Below are positions 1 through 26,237 of a DNA stretch of 48,584 nt, piece by piece. Numbering within the stretch: the first letter of the stretch is position 1; every line of letters starts with the position of its first letter. Under the pieces are notes generated by a model. The model had not been told where the DNA came from, made no database searches, and saw nothing but the letters and a program-made list of their open reading frames with translations. A program made the translations under genes and the position numbers. This DNA is from a virus. Location of the stretch: IMG/VR virus record IMGVR_UViG_3300032334_001302, positions 1 to 48,584 of that record. One strand, written 5' to 3'.

Positions 1-444
1 ATCACCTGCATGTATTCCCATAGCAATGGCACAATCTTTACCTGTTTGTTCAGCAATTGATAAAGCAGCTGCTTGAATAATTGAGCTAAAAATTTTATTA
101 CGATTAGGAACTACAGTTGCTTTCATATTATCTTCAGCATAGTGTCCTTCAGGAACATCATCACCACCCTTTACTAAAGCAGAGTTAAGTAATTTGTCTA
201 ATCCTTTCAGTGTAATTACTTGATGTTTTACTTTAGCATAGTATTGTTCATCCTCATAACGAGAATGAGCATTCAAATACTTTACTAATTCTTTAGCACG
301 CTGTAATTCTACATTGTGTTTTTGTCCATAATCAAAGGAAAGAGCACAAACCTCATATCCATTAGCCAATAAGTGTAATAATAAAGTACTAGAATCCATC
401 CCCCCTGATAGACTAAGTACTGCTTGTTTTGGGTGTTTTTTCAT
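1..444 (-). CDS. queC: 7-cyano-7-deazaguanine synthase (QueC), 3' end outside window
   Basis: QueC converts 7-carboxy-7-deazaguanine to preQ0 with ATP and ammonia. The 148 visible residues show the PP-loop ATP-binding signature SGGMDSS (residues 13-19), then SFDYGQKHNVEL and VVPNRN, all typical of QueC. The C-terminal part, where the family's zinc-binding cysteines lie, is beyond the window edge. The ATG follows the stop of an inserted GIY-YIG gene by only four bases. The start MKKHPKQAVLSLSGG repeats a relic found 750 bases upstream. With the DpdA-like gene nearby, the likely role is supplying a deazaguanine base for phage DNA. Identification is from motifs and is strong; the modification role is inferred. 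Confidence 0.93.
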   Translation of the reverse strand, partial: MKKHPKQAVLSLSGGMDSSTLLLHLLANGYEVCALSFDYGQKHNVELQRAKELVKYLNAHSRYEDEQYYAKVKHQVITLKGLDKLLNSALVKGGDDVPEGHYAEDNMKATVVPNRNKIFSSIIQAAALSIAEQTGKDCAIAMGIHAGD

Positions 445-448
445 AACG

Positions 449-1156
449 TTAATATAAATAATCTTTTTTTAGTTTCCAAATATAATTTAAGTAAGGTTTA
501 TTTCTTTTTATAGCTCCTTGGATTCCTTTATAACCTGCTTTATATACTTCACCATATGAAATCCATTCTTTTATAAAATTTCCTTTTAAATCTAATTGAA
601 TTATACCTTGTCCTTTTGATTTACTAATATTATTATTTCTTTCTTCAGTATAAATTTTATGCTTCCAAGAAGAAATATCTCTATTTGTAAGTTTTTCTTT
701 TATTTTTTGTTTTGATTCTTCTGATCTAGGGGATTTACATTTCCATGTTTTATCTTTAGTACCTCCCCCAACCATGTTAGAAGTATCTTGTACTATCCAA
801 GTTTTTCCTTTAGTAGTACTTTTTCCCTTCATTTTATCTGATTGTTCTTTTTTCCAATTTTCAGTGTGGTTTAAAGGTCCAAAGGGTTTATTGGTTTTAT
901 TATAGTAAAGGGGATTAGTAGCAGCATTAAATTTTTCTAACCAAAAGATTTCTTTTGCATTTAATAAAGAAATATCTTCTACATATTCTAAAATTTCAAG
1001 TTCAGTTTCTTTATATTTTTTTAAATCTTCTTTATATTCTTTGCCGCTACCTTTATAATACTTGTTTCCTCCTTTATGTTTACCCACATAAAATTTTTCA
1101 GTAGCTATTATCTTTCGTCGATAGATATATGGTTTATTAAAATCTATATTATTCAT
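449..1156 (-). CDS. GIY-YIG homing endonuclease inserted at the start of queC
   Basis: The 235-residue protein starts with a GIY-YIG nuclease domain: PYIYRRKI, then FYVGKHKGG about ten residues on, then YYKGSGK and a Glu in the EIFWLEKF helix (residues about 9-90). Short basic NUMOD-like stretches follow, and the last 45 residues (IQLDLKGNFIKEW to YLNYIWK) resemble an IENR1/NUMOD helix-turn-helix DNA-binding repeat. This is the modular layout of free-standing phage homing endonucleases such as the Seg/I-Tev relatives. Its ATG lies just behind an AATATTTATAA promoter-like motif, so it seems to carry its own promoter. It separates a 12-codon relic of queC from the working queC. Fold call is firm; target site is inferred from the insertion. 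Confidence 0.88.
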   Translation of the reverse strand: MNNIDFNKPYIYRRKIIATEKFYVGKHKGGNKYYKGSGKEYKEDLKKYKETELEILEYVEDISLLNAKEIFWLEKFNAATNPLYYNKTNKPFGPLNHTENWKKEQSDKMKGKSTTKGKTWIVQDTSNMVGGGTKDKTWKCKSPRSEESKQKIKEKLTNRDISSWKHKIYTEERNNNISKSKGQGIIQLDLKGNFIKEWISYGEVYKAGYKGIQGAIKRNKPYLNYIWKLKKDYLY

Positions 1157-1160
1157 TTAT

Positions 1161-1170
1161 TATAAATATT
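1161..1170 (-). promoter_or_regulatory. late-promoter-like motif before the GIY-YIG gene
   Basis: In gene sense it reads AATATTTATA, ending five bases before the ATG. It is the same element found in front of many structural genes in the window. If it is a -10 box the transcript would be almost leaderless. Confidence 0.5.
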
Positions 1171-1191
1171 ATAAATTTAAAAACTGTCACG

Positions 1192-1233
1192 TCATATCCC
1201 TCCACTTAATGATAATACTGCTTGTTTATTCAT
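1192..1233 (-). pseudogene. relic of the original queC start
   Basis: Read on the minus strand this encodes MNKQAVLSLSGGI followed by TGA. The residues QAVLSLSGG are identical to those at the start of the working queC 750 bases downstream, where the reading frame continues into MDSS. Its ATG overlaps the stop of the 45-residue gene as ATGA, the arrangement expected for an original, translationally coupled queC start. Homology ends exactly at the Gly-Gly of the PP-loop, where the GIY-YIG segment begins. I read it as the left-over 5' end of queC after insertion of the endonuclease gene. Confidence 0.85.
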
Positions 1234-1367
1234 AGTTTTGTTTTATTTACTAATCTACGTAATTGTTCTAAATTAGACAAGCTTAAGCGAAAACGATTTT
1301 CCCAAAGTGCATCTAATAATTTTTTAATTTCAGCCTCGTAAGCTGGATTGATATCTATTGGACTCAT
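1230..1367 (-). CDS. small unknown protein, 45 aa, coupled to its neighbours
   Basis: I do not recognise it. It has 45 residues (MSPIDINPAYEAEI...), probably helical and charged, with no Cys and no membrane segment. Its ATG overlaps the stop of the upstream 82-residue gene as ATGA. Its own TGA overlaps the ATG of the queC relic in the same way. This double coupling makes it likely to be a real gene and shows that it formed an operon with queC before the endonuclease arrived. Confidence 0.7.
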   Translation of the reverse strand: MSPIDINPAYEAEIKKLLDALWENRFRLSLSNLEQLRRLVNKTKL

Positions 1368-1612
1368 AGGAAAAGACCAACAATTTTTTCTATATCAATT
1401 TCCATTTCCCCAAAATTACTTTGACCAGTACTAAAATAACCAATCAACCAATTTTCAGGATACATCATAATCTTTCCCTTGTATTTAGGGGTAGTTACTT
1501 CTTTAGTTTTAACGGGGATTCTAGAGGCACTAGCTGCTCTAAATACTTGATTTCCCAAATCGCTACCTGCGGGCTTACCTAGGTAGTCGTACAATGACAT
1601 AAATTTTTCCAT
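1364..1612 (-). CDS. small unknown protein, 82 aa
   Basis: Unrecognised. The sequence starts MEKFMSLYDYLGKPAGSDLG; the second Met (MSLYDYLGK) is also a possible start. The middle is basic (KTKEVTTPKYKGKI) and the C-terminus is WLIGYFSTGQSNFGEMEIDIEK. No signal peptide or membrane helix is visible. It lies in a tight run of small genes between the DpdA-like gene and queC, three bases behind the 51-residue gene and overlapping the 45-residue gene by four bases. A role near base modification can only be guessed from position. Confidence 0.75.
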   Translation of the reverse strand: MEKFMSLYDYLGKPAGSDLGNQVFRAASASRIPVKTKEVTTPKYKGKIMMYPENWLIGYFSTGQSNFGEMEIDIEKIVGLFL

Positions 1613-1615
1613 ATT

Positions 1616-1771
1616 TTATTTTTTAATTTCTTTATAATACAAAAACATAAATATAGCTAATGATAATTGATTCATACCAAGAGTATAATGACTCAAAATA
1701 ACATTCATAATAGCACAAGCTACATTCCCTCCAATCGTAACGGGTAAACCGTATTTAATAATTTTATCCAT
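1616..1771 (-). CDS. small hydrophobic protein, 51 aa
   Basis: A 51-residue reading frame starting MDKIIKYGLPVTIGG and ending FYYKEIKK-like (FMFLYYKEIKK). Residues about 8-28 and 33-46 are hydrophobic and could form one or two membrane helices, with lysines at both ends. It begins five bases after the stop of the DpdA-like gene and ends three bases before the 82-residue gene, so the spacing suits an operon member. Function unknown; coding status rests on ATG start, spacing and amino-acid composition. Confidence 0.6.
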   Translation of the reverse strand: MDKIIKYGLPVTIGGNVACAIMNVILSHYTLGMNQLSLAIFMFLYYKEIKK

Positions 1772-1776
1772 ATATT

Positions 1777-2553
1777 TTATTTTAGTAGTTTTCTAAACAT
1801 TCGTAAATTCCAATCTAACAAATTATAATCTAAATCTGTTGTATAAAAATGATCATTCATATTGGCTTTCGGTTTTTCTGTTAAGCCATTGTGGCCGTAC
1901 TGAATACCATCTAGAGTAGCCATAATAGGGTTTGATGTATCAATTGTTTCTATAAAAGGCATATCTTTATACCAACTAAATTCTTGTGGTACCTGACATC
2001 CTAATAAATGTACTCTATCATTTTTAGATATTAAATCCATACTGTACATTCTACTTATTACTTGAACACGACCTAATGCTTTAGCGATATTTTTATTAGG
2101 ATGTGAACTGTGGTCTAAATAATACTCAGCTCCATAAGAAAATGCAATCTTTTTATAACCCAAGTCTTTGTATGTTTGATAACACAAAACAGCATCTAAA
2201 AAGTTTTGAGCTTGTACAACTGCTACTTTAGTAACGCCTTTAGGCAATTTAATTTGAGCCCATTTTCTAGCATTAACAATAGAGGCGTTTGTATCTTGCC
2301 AAACATCAGGAATAATGAATTCATTTGGTTTTAATTCGTTAACCCAATGTAATAAGCCTGAATCGTGGTACGCTTCGCCAAGTTCATGGAGGGAGTTGTC
2401 TAAAATAATATAACGACCTTGTTGTTTGGCTTTCATAAAGAAATCAACATAGTCTTTATCTTTATCTAATAAATGAACTAATGCGTAATCATAGTCGCAA
2501 AATTCAATACTATCCTCTAATAAACATAAAGGAACTTCATGGGATAATTTCAT
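1777..2553 (-). CDS. dpdA: DpdA-like deazaguanine DNA transglycosylase (TGT superfamily)
   Basis: DpdA enzymes exchange guanine in DNA for a 7-deazaguanine made by the Que pathway. The 258-residue protein has features I associate with phage DpdA proteins: LDNSLHELGE (residues 51-60, Asp52), IPDVWQD (81-87, Asp83), VAVVQAQ (110-116), VHLLGC (181-186) and IDTSNP (204-209). These fit the substrate and catalytic Asp positions of a TIM-barrel TGT. It lacks the RNA-binding PUA region of archaeal TGTs. The ATG chosen follows an AATATTTATT promoter-like motif; a TTG 36 bases upstream is the alternative. QueC lies in the same operon direction, supporting the call. Family assignment is from memory of motifs, moderately sure. 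Confidence 0.68.
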   Translation of the reverse strand: MKLSHEVPLCLLEDSIEFCDYDYALVHLLDKDKDYVDFFMKAKQQGRYIILDNSLHELGEAYHDSGLLHWVNELKPNEFIIPDVWQDTNASIVNARKWAQIKLPKGVTKVAVVQAQNFLDAVLCYQTYKDLGYKKIAFSYGAEYYLDHSSHPNKNIAKALGRVQVISRMYSMDLISKNDRVHLLGCQVPQEFSWYKDMPFIETIDTSNPIMATLDGIQYGHNGLTEKPKANMNDHFYTTDLDYNLLDWNLRMFRKLLK

Positions 2554-2589: not shown

Positions 2590-3102
2590 TTAAAATACGG
2601 GAATAGGTTTGATTTTTGGTAAATTTCTTGATTCTCTATACGCCTCTAAAAACTCAGGTATGGTTCCCTCGAACGATTCAAACATATCTTTGATATGTTC
2701 TTCAGTACCACCAAAATTCGTTTTAACATCTTTAACAAATGCAACCCAACGATTAAGCTCATCACGTTCAGCATCATTCAGCAAACGTTTGCGACGTTGC
2801 CAATACAGTTTTGTAATTTGACGTTCTTGCCAGTCAATATTTTCATAAGAACCGGAATAATTGGCTTTATATTTGTCTATTTCCTGTTTTTCGAACCAAA
2901 ACTCGTATTCTCGTTGTTTGTAATAAGGAGTAACATCATAGTCACCATTTTTGACCTTATCCCAAATAGAGGCCATCTTAGACAATGTTTTGTGTTCTTG
3001 ATAACGTCTCCACCAAAAAAACTTGTTGTAAGTTTTGTTTGGTTTTGGGGGGGTTGGGTCATAAGTGGATTTCCACTTTAGACAATCTTCAACCATGCTC
3101 AT
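2590..3102 (-). CDS. unknown protein, 170 aa
   Basis: Unrecognised. It is rich in Trp, Tyr and charged residues (KFFWWRRYQEHK near residue 27; WQERQITKLYWQRRKR near 90-105) and Pro-rich near residues 16-22. It has no obvious membrane helix and looks like a soluble helical protein. Its ATG overlaps the stop of the 76-residue gene as ATGA, and its stop is close to the DpdA-like gene. Position suggests an accessory operon of small early genes. Confidence 0.72.
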   Translation of the reverse strand: MSMVEDCLKWKSTYDPTPPKPNKTYNKFFWWRRYQEHKTLSKMASIWDKVKNGDYDVTPYYKQREYEFWFEKQEIDKYKANYSGSYENIDWQERQITKLYWQRRKRLLNDAERDELNRWVAFVKDVKTNFGGTEEHIKDMFESFEGTIPEFLEAYRESRNLPKIKPIPVF

Positions 3103-4601: not shown

Positions 4602-4796
4602 TGTGCTTTTTTTCTTTTTGTAGTACTTACGTTTTGGTTTTGTTTTAGGAGCAGGAGCTTCTTGAGTAGCTACCAGTTCTTGAACTGTAGGTTCAACTAC
4701 TACAGGAGCCGGAGCTTCAACTACTACTGGAGCCGGAGCTTCAACCACTTTACTTTCACCGAAAATTAAGTTTCTGAGTTTTTGGATTATATTCAT
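4587..4796 (-). CDS. small protein with PAPVVVE repeats and a Lys-rich tail, 69 aa
   Basis: The N-terminus (MNIIQKLRNLIFGESK) is an amphipathic helix. It is followed by two near-identical VVEAPAPVV units and a third degenerate one, then a basic tail KPKRKYYKKKKSTGESK. The Ala/Pro/Val linker with a lysine tail recalls histone-H1-like or DNA-coating tails, but no family is recognised. It sits 12 bases behind the ribonucleotide reductase gene and ends in a hairpin, so it is probably the last gene of the replication operon. Confidence 0.72.
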   Translation of the reverse strand: MNIIQKLRNLIFGESKVVEAPAPVVVEAPAPVVVEPTVQELVATQEAPAPKTKPKRKYYKKKKSTGESK

Positions 4797-4808
4797 AGTT
4801 TTTATTTT

Positions 4809-6665
4809 TTATACGATTTCGCACGCACCTGAAGCACAAGCAACGCTTTCCATTAGGGCTGTGTTATCATCCATTTCGATTACTTTTGTTAAATCTATAG
4901 AATGTAGTGAAGAAACAGCTGTTTCAAATTGTTCCTTTGTAATAGTAGAAAAAGGTGCCTGTACATAGGTTCCCAAGTCTTCCGGAAGAACAGATAATGC
5001 TGTGAAATATTCTTTATTTTCATAAAGCCATTCTCCAACTGCAGGCCATTCATCTTGTTTAAGAGTTACTGTAGCTGATACGTTATGCATATTAGCACCT
5101 TTTCTATGACCCGGTTTAATCCAGTTTTTGTTAATTGTTTTAATACGTTCTAACATATCCATAGCTGATTCTTTACGTGTAATAGAACCTTCTGGAGCAC
5201 GTTGAGGAACAGAAACAATTGATTGTAATGTTGGTTTGAAGAAATCATCTTCCAACATTTCTGGATGGTACATGTTTAAGTAAGAATATAAAGCTTCATT
5301 TTTACCTAAACGAATTCTACGTAAGTAAAAATCATCATGCCAAGCATGGATACCTGAGCTAGTACCTAATACTAAACTTGTAGTACCTGAGGGTTTAACT
5401 GTAGTAACACGAGCTGCTTTATTAATACCTAATACTTTAGCTACACGTTCGTTTTCTTCAACAGCTACTTTAGCTGCCTCTTTTATATTTAATTTAAACA
5501 CAGCACCTGAAGCAATACCTGTCATTCCAATACCTAACAATGCTTCTTTTTCGGTTGTTTTTCTCCAAACATCTCTCAAGTAATGGAAATCAGTATAAGA
5601 GGCTTGTAGTGTACCAATAAATGCTGCTGCTTTAGCTCGTGCATTGTATTCCTCTTGCGTCTCAATATCGCTAGCGTTAATTTCACACAAGTTACAGAAT
5701 TGATTAGCTTTTAAGTTAATTTCAGCACAAGGATTTGTTCCAGCATCTTTATCGTTTGTGAATAAAAATCCAGGTTCACCACTATTAGATGCCTCAATTT
5801 TAGCCCACAATCCCATAAATGTTTCTTTATCAATCAAATTACGAAGCAATACTGCTGAGTTATTAGCACGGCCACGTTGTGGGTTATTTTCCCACCAATT
5901 ACCAAACTTACAAGTTAACATATCCTCATCATGTAAATTGAACAAAGCAATAAGAGCGGCTCTACGAATACCACCTGATAATACAGCATCAGCTAAGTGA
6001 CAAATAATATCGTGACACTCAACAGTTGTTAATTTCTCACCATCATTTTTACGATCCAAAATCGCTTGCATATGAATTAAAGCAATTTTTAATGGTTCAG
6101 GACCTGGTGCTTTACCACCAACTGTAATCAATGAAGCACCTTTAGCTCTAATGTCTCTAAAGTCAAATAGAGGAGCGGTTGATGTTTGTCCAAAGTATGC
6201 TTTAGTCAACATACGAACGGCATCAGCCCATCCTTCAATAGAATCACCTACTAAATAACGCTTTGATTTCAAAGGTTTTCTAATTTCGGGTAGTTGTTCA
6301 ACATGATGTGATTGAACAGAATATCCTACTCCACAACCTGATAACAATAAGAACATAATTTCAGAAAATGCTCTAAAGTCATCAATTGGTAAGTAAGAAC
6401 AGTTAAAAATACGAGCATTGTTTATTTCAATTGGTTTACCGGCAAACTGCATGGAACGCATTGATGGTAATACCTTTTTGTCATAAACATACTGGTAAGC
6501 GGCTTCAATTTCTTCAGCCAATTGTGGAAACTTTTTTAAGTGCATTTCCTTGTTTCGAGTTACTAGCTCGTCCCATGTTTCTCTCCTGTTTTTTTCAGGT
6601 ACGAATTTCGCGTATTTGAGGTGGGTAGTAATTTCAGACAAAATTTGTGATTCTGTGGTTAGCAT
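4809..6665 (-). CDS. class II (adenosylcobalamin-dependent) ribonucleotide reductase
   Basis: Reduces ribonucleotides to deoxyribonucleotides for phage DNA synthesis. The 618-residue chain resembles the monomeric RTPR type: FNCSY (Cys89, first redox Cys), the finger-loop NPCAEI (311-316, thiyl Cys313 and Glu315), FCNLCE (323-328, second redox Cys), and a C-terminal CASGACEIV pair for re-reduction. No small radical-generating subunit gene is present in the window, fitting a B12 enzyme. It is shorter than the lactobacillus enzyme (about 740 residues). It lies 15 bases behind the helicase gene in the replication operon. Class is inferred from motifs; substrate level (NTP or NDP) is not resolved. 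Confidence 0.87.
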   Translation of the reverse strand: MLTTESQILSEITTHLKYAKFVPEKNRRETWDELVTRNKEMHLKKFPQLAEEIEAAYQYVYDKKVLPSMRSMQFAGKPIEINNARIFNCSYLPIDDFRAFSEIMFLLLSGCGVGYSVQSHHVEQLPEIRKPLKSKRYLVGDSIEGWADAVRMLTKAYFGQTSTAPLFDFRDIRAKGASLITVGGKAPGPEPLKIALIHMQAILDRKNDGEKLTTVECHDIICHLADAVLSGGIRRAALIALFNLHDEDMLTCKFGNWWENNPQRGRANNSAVLLRNLIDKETFMGLWAKIEASNSGEPGFLFTNDKDAGTNPCAEINLKANQFCNLCEINASDIETQEEYNARAKAAAFIGTLQASYTDFHYLRDVWRKTTEKEALLGIGMTGIASGAVFKLNIKEAAKVAVEENERVAKVLGINKAARVTTVKPSGTTSLVLGTSSGIHAWHDDFYLRRIRLGKNEALYSYLNMYHPEMLEDDFFKPTLQSIVSVPQRAPEGSITRKESAMDMLERIKTINKNWIKPGHRKGANMHNVSATVTLKQDEWPAVGEWLYENKEYFTALSVLPEDLGTYVQAPFSTITKEQFETAVSSLHSIDLTKVIEMDDNTALMESVACASGACEIV

Positions 6666-12110: not shown

Positions 12111-12794
12111 TTAAATTTTTTGTTCTTTCCAAATAAACCCATATGCTGTTTTTTGTTTACCTTTTAAACAACAAGTAATCCCACTGCTATTTATACTTTT
12201 TCCAAAAAATAAATAAGCATCAGTGATTGATTTCCATTCTTTAATGAAATTTCCCTCAAAATTATATTGGAAAACGGGTTTTTGGGAATTAGGTTTAGAA
12301 ACTCTCATATTTAATTTCCCCTGTTCTGATCTAGGTTTTCTCATGTTTTGCTTAGCTTCTTCTGACTTAGGTTTTCTTAGTTTCTCTTTTTCTTCTTCAG
12401 ACATAATATATCCTTCTTTTCTACCTACATCCCATGTAATAACTCTATTTTTAAAAATTTCTTGGTGTTTTTGTTTTTGTTCCTTATTCCAAGGGCCTGA
12501 TTTTCCTAAATCATAAAGATTATTAAATAATACTTTATTGTAATTACCTTCTACTTGATCTAAATAATATTGTTTCCAAAATGTTTCTTTATTATCAAGT
12601 TGATTTAAAGAACATTCTTCAATAATTTCTTTTTTATGATTGTCAAAACCATATTTTTCATAAGAATGTTTTAGTTTAGGACCTATACCAGCATAATTTT
12701 TATGTTCATTCCATCTTTTAATAATATTAATAGATTGACCTATATATATTTTTCCAGAAGGGGATGATATTTTATATATGCCTTGTTTTTTCAA
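12111..12794 (-). CDS. GIY-YIG homing endonuclease, TTG start coupled to upstream gene
   Basis: GIY-YIG domain with KQGIYKISS and KIYIGQSINIIKRWNEHK at the very N-terminus, then a Glu in ETFWKQYYL. Three tandem NUMOD3-like units follow (SEEEKEKLRKPK, SEEAKQNMRKPR, SEQGKLNMR). An IENR1-like C-terminal module runs from PVFQYNFEGNF to GFIWKEQK. An in-frame stop lies two codons upstream, and the only start that keeps the domain is TTG, which overlaps the previous gene's stop as TTGA. The gene therefore seems to be translated by coupling, not from its own promoter. Confidence 0.83.
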   Translation of the reverse strand: MKKQGIYKISSPSGKIYIGQSINIIKRWNEHKNYAGIGPKLKHSYEKYGFDNHKKEIIEECSLNQLDNKETFWKQYYLDQVEGNYNKVLFNNLYDLGKSGPWNKEQKQKHQEIFKNRVITWDVGRKEGYIMSEEEKEKLRKPKSEEAKQNMRKPRSEQGKLNMRVSKPNSQKPVFQYNFEGNFIKEWKSITDAYLFFGKSINSSGITCCLKGKQKTAYGFIWKEQKI

Positions 12795-25541: not shown

Positions 25542-26237
25542 CTACTTATAAACCCATTTAAAATTATAAGCTGTTTTAGAAAGACCAGTTAAACAACAAC
25601 TTATATTAGATCTCTTAAATTTAGGATTACTTTTAGAAGCTTCATCTATACTTTTAAATTCTTGAATAATATTATTTTCTTTATCTAACTGTATTACAGG
25701 TTTATATTTTTTATTTAAGAATGATTGAGGTTGATTTTTACCTAATTTTCCTTGTTTTATTTTTTCACAATGATCTTTTGATAATTTTACACCTTTTTTT
25801 ATTTGGCTTATTTTATTACCAAATCCTTCTGGTTTAGGTTTTCCTTTATTAGCTTTACTAAGTTTATCTTTACGTTCTTGATTTATACTTAATATAGGTT
25901 TTAATTTACCTTTATTACCTTTTCCTATTTTTTCAGTTACATATTTGTATTTTTCCTCATTTAAATTTTTATTATACCACCCAGAGGTTTTACTTCTTAT
26001 GTTGTAAAAATTTTTTGATTTAACAGCATCAAAATAATTAATCCAATATTCTTCACGTTCTCCTAAATTTTCTTTAGTACATATTTCTAATATTTCTTTT
26101 TGAAAATTTTCTTTACCATATTTTTTAATATCTTCTATAAGTAAAGCCCCAGAACCTAAGTAATTTGGATCATTATGAGAATCTTTACCAATATACTTTT
26201 TATTATTTAATAAATTCTTAGTTATGTATATTATCAT
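25542..26237 (-). CDS. GIY-YIG homing endonuclease between sheath and tube genes
   Basis: Nuclease domain at the extreme N-terminus: MIIYITKNL, KKYIGKDSHNDPNYLGSG, and a Glu in EREEYWINYF. Basic NUMOD3-like repeats follow (NKGKPKPEGFGNK, SKDHCEKIKQGK). A C-terminal IENR1-like module runs from PVIQLDKENNIIQEF to AYNFKWVYK. Its ATG follows the sheath terminator by a few bases and its promoter-like motif lies inside that terminator's loop. This looks like a self-contained mobile cassette that has landed between two highly conserved structural genes. Confidence 0.85.
   Translation of the reverse strand: MIIYITKNLLNNKKYIGKDSHNDPNYLGSGALLIEDIKKYGKENFQKEILEICTKENLGEREEYWINYFDAVKSKNFYNIRSKTSGWYNKNLNEEKYKYVTEKIGKGNKGKLKPILSINQERKDKLSKANKGKPKPEGFGNKISQIKKGVKLSKDHCEKIKQGKLGKNQPQSFLNKKYKPVIQLDKENNIIQEFKSIDEASKSNPKFKRSNISCCLTGLSKTAYNFKWVYK

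Follow-up and report, generated by a model that had tools for sequence, protein, structure and literature searches.

A homing endonuclease gene in the first codons of a phage queC, with a stranded native start and a differently spelled replacement

The window considered here is the whole 48,584-base record IMGVR_UViG_3300032334_001302 of the IMG/VR virus collection, the left end of which falls inside a queC gene (Table 1). This end is predicted to hold a phage 7-deazaguanine DNA-modification operon, a system of an already known kind, in which queC contains a homing endonuclease gene (HEG) close to its start. A first-pass annotation had described one short operon with queC, a dpdA-like gene and small coupled open reading frames (ORFs). 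All of these are present, the small ORFs being of 45, 82, 51 and 170 amino acids (aa), but the HEG that interrupts the operon inside queC had been overlooked.

Table 1. Positions of the genes and gene segments at the left end of the window (nt, nucleotides).
Feature	Position	Strand	Basis or remark
queC body, native lineage, incomplete at the window end	1-337	-	Pfam QueC 3.6e-28; 96.7% nt identity to L004, 93% to L008 (last 334 nt)
Replacement queC 5' end (MKKHPKQAVLSLSGGMDSS...), other synonymous spelling, nuclease-borne	338-444	-	35/60 nt and 20/20 aa to L008
Homing endonuclease gene, 235 aa, GIY-YIG type	449-1156	-	phrog_314 9.5e-15; same gene at queC in relatives
5' part of the element, with the HEG leader and the stop codon that closes the remnant frame (TGA 1192-1194)	1157-1195	-	Junction of GGAGGGAT with ATGACGTGACAG conserved in L088
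Native queC 5' remnant MNKQAVLSLSGG, 38 nt, left flank of the insertion	1196-1233	-	Last 26 nt as in the native alleles L284/L043
45-aa ORF	1230-1367	-	Stop codon TGA and former queC start ATG overlap in ATGA, likewise in relatives without the insertion
82-aa ORF, function unknown	1364-1612	-	Conserved in relatives
51-aa ORF, function unknown	1616-1771	-	ORF list
DpdA-like transglycosylase, 258 aa	1777-2553	-	phrog_19058; pLDDT 93.9; DpdA 7ui4 Z 17.0; invariant D52, D205
170-aa ORF	2590-3102		ORF list

The gene inside queC encodes a 235-aa protein that matches two homing endonuclease families of phages, phrog_314 (9.5e-15) and phrog_7168, and contains a motif-like IYRR...FYVGKH; a comparison with a collection of phage records returned no match. 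This protein is related (27%, E 2e-6) to the product of the window gene at 12111-12794, which itself matches the Pfam domains GIY-YIG and NUMOD1. Two more GIY-YIG/NUMOD1 HEGs are present in the window, at 12111-12794 and 25542-26237, both on the minus strand, the latter directly after the tail sheath gene, and no duplicated or swapped neighbour start was found at either of them.

The organization of the interrupted gene can be read by comparison with its relatives, which are metagenomic contigs designated by L numbers and referred to as HEG+ or HEG- according to whether they carry a HEG at the locus. In the window, an ATGA is followed by ATGAATAAACAAGCAGTATTATCATTAAGTGGAGGGAT, corresponding to native queC codons 1-12, then by a stop, the nuclease gene and a complete second queC start, the break being located between codons 12 and 13, inside the PP-loop motif, after SGG and before MDSS. 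In L008, L009, L012 and L013, the 45-aa ORF joins an uninterrupted queC directly by the ATGA overlap, and these sequences represent empty alleles. Remnant and adjoining flank, 110 nt in all, share 95% identity with the uninterrupted L008, but over its last 26 nt the remnant reaches only 0.62 against the second queC copy further downstream in the window. Besides the tail-fibre repeats and one chance pair, KQAVLSLSGG, the peptide found at both starts, is the sole same-strand near-repeat of at least 8 residues in the window. Both empty and occupied alleles of one queC site are on record, with a pattern of flank co-conversion.

The second queC start encodes the same residues in other codons. Over the first 60 nt from KQAV onwards, the window and L008 share 20/20 aa but 35/60 bases, and their later DNA identity is of about 90% or more. 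Since the element supplies its own spelling of the queC start, queC still reads intact. More precisely, the first 100 nt of this queC find their best matches in L028, L044 and L092 (84-88%), and the remainder is closest to L004 (96.7%), the identity to the native lineage jumping from 60% to 96% at about 90 nt into the gene. A maximum chi-squared analysis places the breakpoint 89-92 nt past the K of KQAV (window positions ~337-340), with a value of 71.7, informative sites dividing between L004 and L028 as 4:32 on the left and 64:4 on the right, and a permutation p<=2e-4.

A pair statistic, in which the identity of the 5' end is set against that of the gene body in HEG+/HEG- pairs, was applied to queC and then to groEL. 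Among the 65 queC pairs whose bodies are at least 90% identical, four have a 5' identity below 0.80 (the window versus L004, L007 and L008, and L035 versus L307), and every one of them opposes a HEG+ to a HEG- sequence; the remaining pairs reach at least 0.815, with a median of 0.94. For bodies at least 0.85 identical, 13 HEG-discordant pairs lie at 0.59-0.83 and the concordant pairs have a median of 0.90, the lowest of the latter (0.64) including L028.

The same nuclease gene is found at queC in L088 (82% in alignment), L044 (79%), L317 (61%), L323 and L337 (46%). L088 shares the junction of GGAGGGAT with ATGACGTGACAG in another queC lineage, where the remnant and the full queC are both distinct from those of the window, and a pattern scan of IMG/VR for this junction retrieved only L088 besides the window. 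L317 belongs to a third lineage and is cut at the identical point, its remnant being MEKHVVISLSGGIL followed by a stop; the remnant of L337, MSKKHVVVSLSGGM and a stop, ends at or within one codon of the window's site. In L044 and L323, the nuclease gene lies directly ahead of queC. When remnant and flank are compared with the recipient lineage, identities amount to 95% for the window and L008, 95% for L088 and L010, and 89% for L317 and L152, the cut falling after SGG each time, and the remnant matches the local empty allele in every GIY-YIG case tested.

In addition, an unrelated HNH-type nuclease is encoded directly 5' of queC in 13/13 contigs having it at an identity of at least 73%; its assignment is based on a Pfam HNH score (0.015) that is below cut-off and on a HIDHIIPLSS motif. 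Several of these loci, about half, keep a shorter queC remnant, ending after MNKQAVL, MAKHVVV or MKHVV. Besides, the methionine of the PP-loop is replaced by leucine in most of them, with 2 M and 9 L in HNH+ sequences versus 129 M and 5 L in HEG- ones (Fisher 1.7e-9).

A similar design is encountered at a second gene, where GIY-YIG nucleases that are more distant kin (41%) of the window's nuclease sit between groES and groEL. There, the remnant ATGAGTAAAGTTATAGAAT equals the groEL start of L365 and L366, which are empty alleles, and an entire groEL that begins differently follows. The 14 HEG-discordant groEL pairs have 5' identities of 0.62-0.74, versus at least 0.82 (median 0.99) for the 84 concordant ones, and the statistic flagged L395 and L397 (5' end 0.62, body 0.94) before their upstream HEG was detected. 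In L395, the identity switches from about 60% to 90-100% about 210 nt into groEL. The groES-groEL loci with a GIY-YIG HEG and a swapped groEL 5' end comprise L325 (1501-3705), L361-L364, L395, L397, L398 and L437.

The reading that we favour, with a probability of roughly 85%, is that of a phage 7-deazaguanine operon whose queC would have been invaded by a homing element bringing its own recoded 5' end. As judged from sequence comparison, this element is best read as a natural "home-and-rescue" element with a presumably cleavage-resistant gene start, for which we infer cleavage. The insertion lies between queC codons 12 and 13, with the first 38 native nt stranded upstream and the element's own complete, differently spelled queC 5' end in their place downstream. 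The encoded N-terminus is preserved, with different DNA where the nuclease is presumed to cut. The nuclease would cut the uninterrupted queC of a co-infecting phage near the PP-loop codons, the swapped 5' version would resist cutting, and the element would be copied during double-strand-break repair, the flanks being co-converted, a process already described for phage HEGs (PMC2988022). Such repair would find its left homology in the stranded 5' remnant and the upstream genes and its right homology in the queC body further downstream, and a crossover within this body would yield a chimeric queC.

Several observations weigh against this interpretation. Pfam GIY-YIG gives no match on the 235-aa nuclease, whose catalytic domain is weakly recognised, through homology to phage HEGs, and the fold model of the protein is poor (predicted local distance difference test, pLDDT, of 39) and unusable. 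The queC remnant is missing at several HEG-queC loci (L166, L168, L172-L175, L323), and a scan for duplicated peptides at 97 HEG loci found 13 for 7.1 expected, which is near background; the design is therefore not universal among HEGs. The HEG+ and HEG- counts given above cover related sequences and not independent events. Finally, L028 (5992-6879) possesses a HEG-type queC 5' end, 94% identical to that of L044 over the 5' block, without a HEG. A swapped start can therefore occur where the nuclease is absent; L028 could stem from a donor lineage or have lost its HEG.

This last sequence gives some weight to the idea that the 5' spelling results from selection on queC expression, through codon choice or the structure of the start region, or from ordinary recombination, the HEG having come later. 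We regard this as unlikely, although it survives better than the other alternatives, since the breakpoint is sharp instead of the changes being scattered, and since the same discordance is independently observed at groEL. It is less probable still that an ordinary deazaguanine operon simply received an unrelated free-standing endonuclease between two genes, the upstream copy of the queC start being due to chance or to an old duplication. Free-standing HEGs between genes are indeed common in T4-like phages (PMC2988022), and the two further HEGs of the window lack such a duplication. However, this explanation has to face the 95% identity of remnant and flank to an uninterrupted allele, the recurrence of the junction in L088 and of a cut at the same point or within one codon of it in the different lineages of L317 and L337, and a 5' identity that sets HEG+/HEG- pairs apart from most or all others.

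A comparably low probability is given to the view that the upstream mini-ORF (MNKQAVLSLSGGI and its stop) is a regulatory leader peptide under selection, beyond a scar or a homology arm: its start and stop are kept in the window, L088, L317 and several HNH loci, but the length and end of the remnant vary with the element (VL, VV, SGG or SGGM), several HEG+ loci have no mini-ORF, and the remnant follows the recipient lineage. A self-splicing intron or intein, with the upstream piece as a 5' exon joined to the downstream one, can be rejected almost entirely: homing endonucleases are often carried by group I introns and a position in a conserved motif would suit an intron site, but the second queC is itself entire, starting at an ATG of its own and encoding these residues again, so that splicing of MNKQAVLSLSGG to it would duplicate SGG, the HEG frame leaves no more than ~40 nt and 4 nt uncovered, which gives no room for an intron, and no Rfam intron was found at the gathering cut-off, nor at E<=5 in positions 1-2600. 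An assembly artefact is unlikely as well, L088, L317 and L337 sharing the layout on independent contigs.

The operon that would host this homing element is itself supported by several lines of comparison. The window ORF that the first-pass annotation had named QueC (1-444, minus strand, 148 aa, open at the left end) matches PF06508 (E 3.6e-28) and contains the PP-loop SGGMDSS; it scores 5e-27 with TIGR00364, under the whole-protein cut-off of TIGR, the protein being incomplete, and the QueC of full-length relatives reaches ~1e-38. The annotation also expected folE, queD and queE to the left or from the host, and the left side is unreadable in a window ending inside queC; among 14 long relatives, folE (12/14) and queD (13/14) are located within a few kb on the 3' side of queC. 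The genes of L005 run from dpdA through small ORFs to queC, then thioredoxin, queD, a radical SAM gene and, further on, folE, the radical SAM gene between queD and folE being the probable queE. This proximity in relatives supports the pathway call, and queD, queE and folE presumably lie beyond the left end in the phage of the window. Because QueF, leading to preQ1, is rare (1/14 relatives above cut-off), the final modified base may be either preQ0 itself or a compound derived from it.

Regarding the 258-aa protein, sequence searches were uninformative, with a match to phrog_19058 (1.1e-42), a family without known function, no Pfam family and no Pfam tRNA-guanine transglycosylase (TGT) match, nothing useful from a PDB sequence search, and weak matches to the DpdA profiles of PADLOC; a comparison of folds was therefore needed. 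The AlphaFold model, obtained with 51 homologs, is of high confidence (pLDDT 93.9, predicted template modelling score 0.90), and the first 50 Foldseek matches in the PDB are TGTs and the DpdA structure 7ui4 (E of 7e-7 and 2.5e-5, respectively). With VIA-align, 7ui4 is the best match (Z 17.0, root-mean-square deviation 3.1, 227 residues), tied with TGTs at Z 16.4-16.8, and the TGT-type barrel spans most of the protein in this predicted structure. The candidate catalytic aspartates D52 (LDNSLHE) and D205 (IDTSNP) are invariant among the 51 homologs; a profile comparison, the match of which is weak, places D205 opposite IDSTTP of 7ui4. No cysteine occurs beyond residue 205 in the window sequence; the canonical C-terminal Cys3-His zinc site of TGTs is therefore missing. 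The DpdA-like assignment of the first-pass annotation thus holds within the TGT fold group, the modelled protein being a TGT-fold relative and not a canonical TGT.

The nearest homolog in a characterised phage is KNV73_gp206 of Flavobacterium phage immuto, which is ~35% identical, annotated as DpdA, and adjoins FolE, QueE and QueD. The window resembles the known phage DpdA/QueC pathway in that a TGT-fold protein accompanies QueC, with QueD, QueE and FolE in relatives (PMC6884629; immuto; 7ui4), and differs from it in that its protein is a short form of 258 aa, sharing ~35% identity with the immuto protein annotated as DpdA and assigned to a phrog without function. Campylobacter phages, among which CP220, CPt10 and CP21, encode hypothetical proteins ~35% identical to it; the CP220 homolog (NC_027997 54675-55451, L441 6001-6777) adjoins a thymidylate kinase and an HD/AAA protein. 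A paper of 2019 reported that Campylobacter phages have the preQ0 pathway without DpdA, and yet dADG-rich DNA (PMC6884629). In the light of these homologs, the family of the window protein is a candidate for their inserting enzyme.

Two further features were noted next to the HNH-queC loci. A short motif, aGGTTtgaaGTTCCatAACCTacaaatacCGGAACaaag, lies just ahead of queC in L167 (3660-3715), L168-L174 and L176, where it falls in the spacer between the HNH-type HEG and queC, and also in L337 (~1930-1980). Its second stem varies (GTTCC/GGAAC, GCTCC/GGAGT, GCCCC/GGGGT), it could fold as an H-type pseudoknot, and it matches no Rfam family; its placement ahead of queC suggests a candidate preQ-sensing leader. 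In L173, five tRNA genes are clustered directly 3' of the HNH-queC locus (4615-6158).

Among known systems, the closest in layout are the fungal mitochondrial mobile ORFs, which form gene hybrids in atp6 of Allomyces and in atp6, atp9, cox2 and nad3 of Glomus (PMC3630166). In both cases an endonuclease ORF lies in a conserved gene with a foreign replacement end and a stranded native end, the protein remaining about the same and the DNA being divergent. The fungal elements replace the C-terminus and strand the native 3' end, whereas in the window, in a phage instead of a mitochondrion, the N-terminus is replaced and the 5' start stranded; the three hallmarks of an end-replacing mobile ORF, namely a HEG, a foreign gene end and a stranded native end, are thus found here at the 5' and not the 3' end. 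In the cases reviewed, T4-type HEGs lie between genes or split a gene in two, as mobE in the nrdA of Aeh1 and mobA in gene 60 (PMC2988022). The intronless homing of such seg and mob genes is similar as to a HEG outside an intron, by or in a conserved gene, flank co-conversion and several nuclease classes converging on one gene, but the reviewed coding insertions split the gene, whereas in the window a replacement 5' end keeps queC in one piece. In its design, which combines a nuclease placed within the target gene with a recoded part of this gene, the element also recalls the synthetic home-and-rescue drive HomeR, an engineered CRISPR drive in insects to which it has no relationship (PMC7968924). 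No description of a phage element replacing a gene 5' end was found in the open-access literature searched.

The insertion of a homing nuclease in a coding sequence is generally expected to require splicing or to split the gene. It appears somewhat more probable than the contrary that phages carry recurrent gene-start-swapping homing elements, in which unrelated nucleases, GIY-YIG or HNH, would occupy the first codons of queC and groEL together with a resistant 5' segment of ~90-210 nt, and which would act as natural home-and-rescue drives exchanging N-termini between lineages, even with an M to L change in the PP-loop in the case of the HNH elements. Free-standing phage nucleases would thereby gain conserved coding sites without knocking out the gene, and swapped starts would explain mosaic 5' ends of phage genes, offering a natural parallel to recoded-rescue gene drives. 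The choice of target would also be telling, queC belonging to a DNA-armour pathway of phages.

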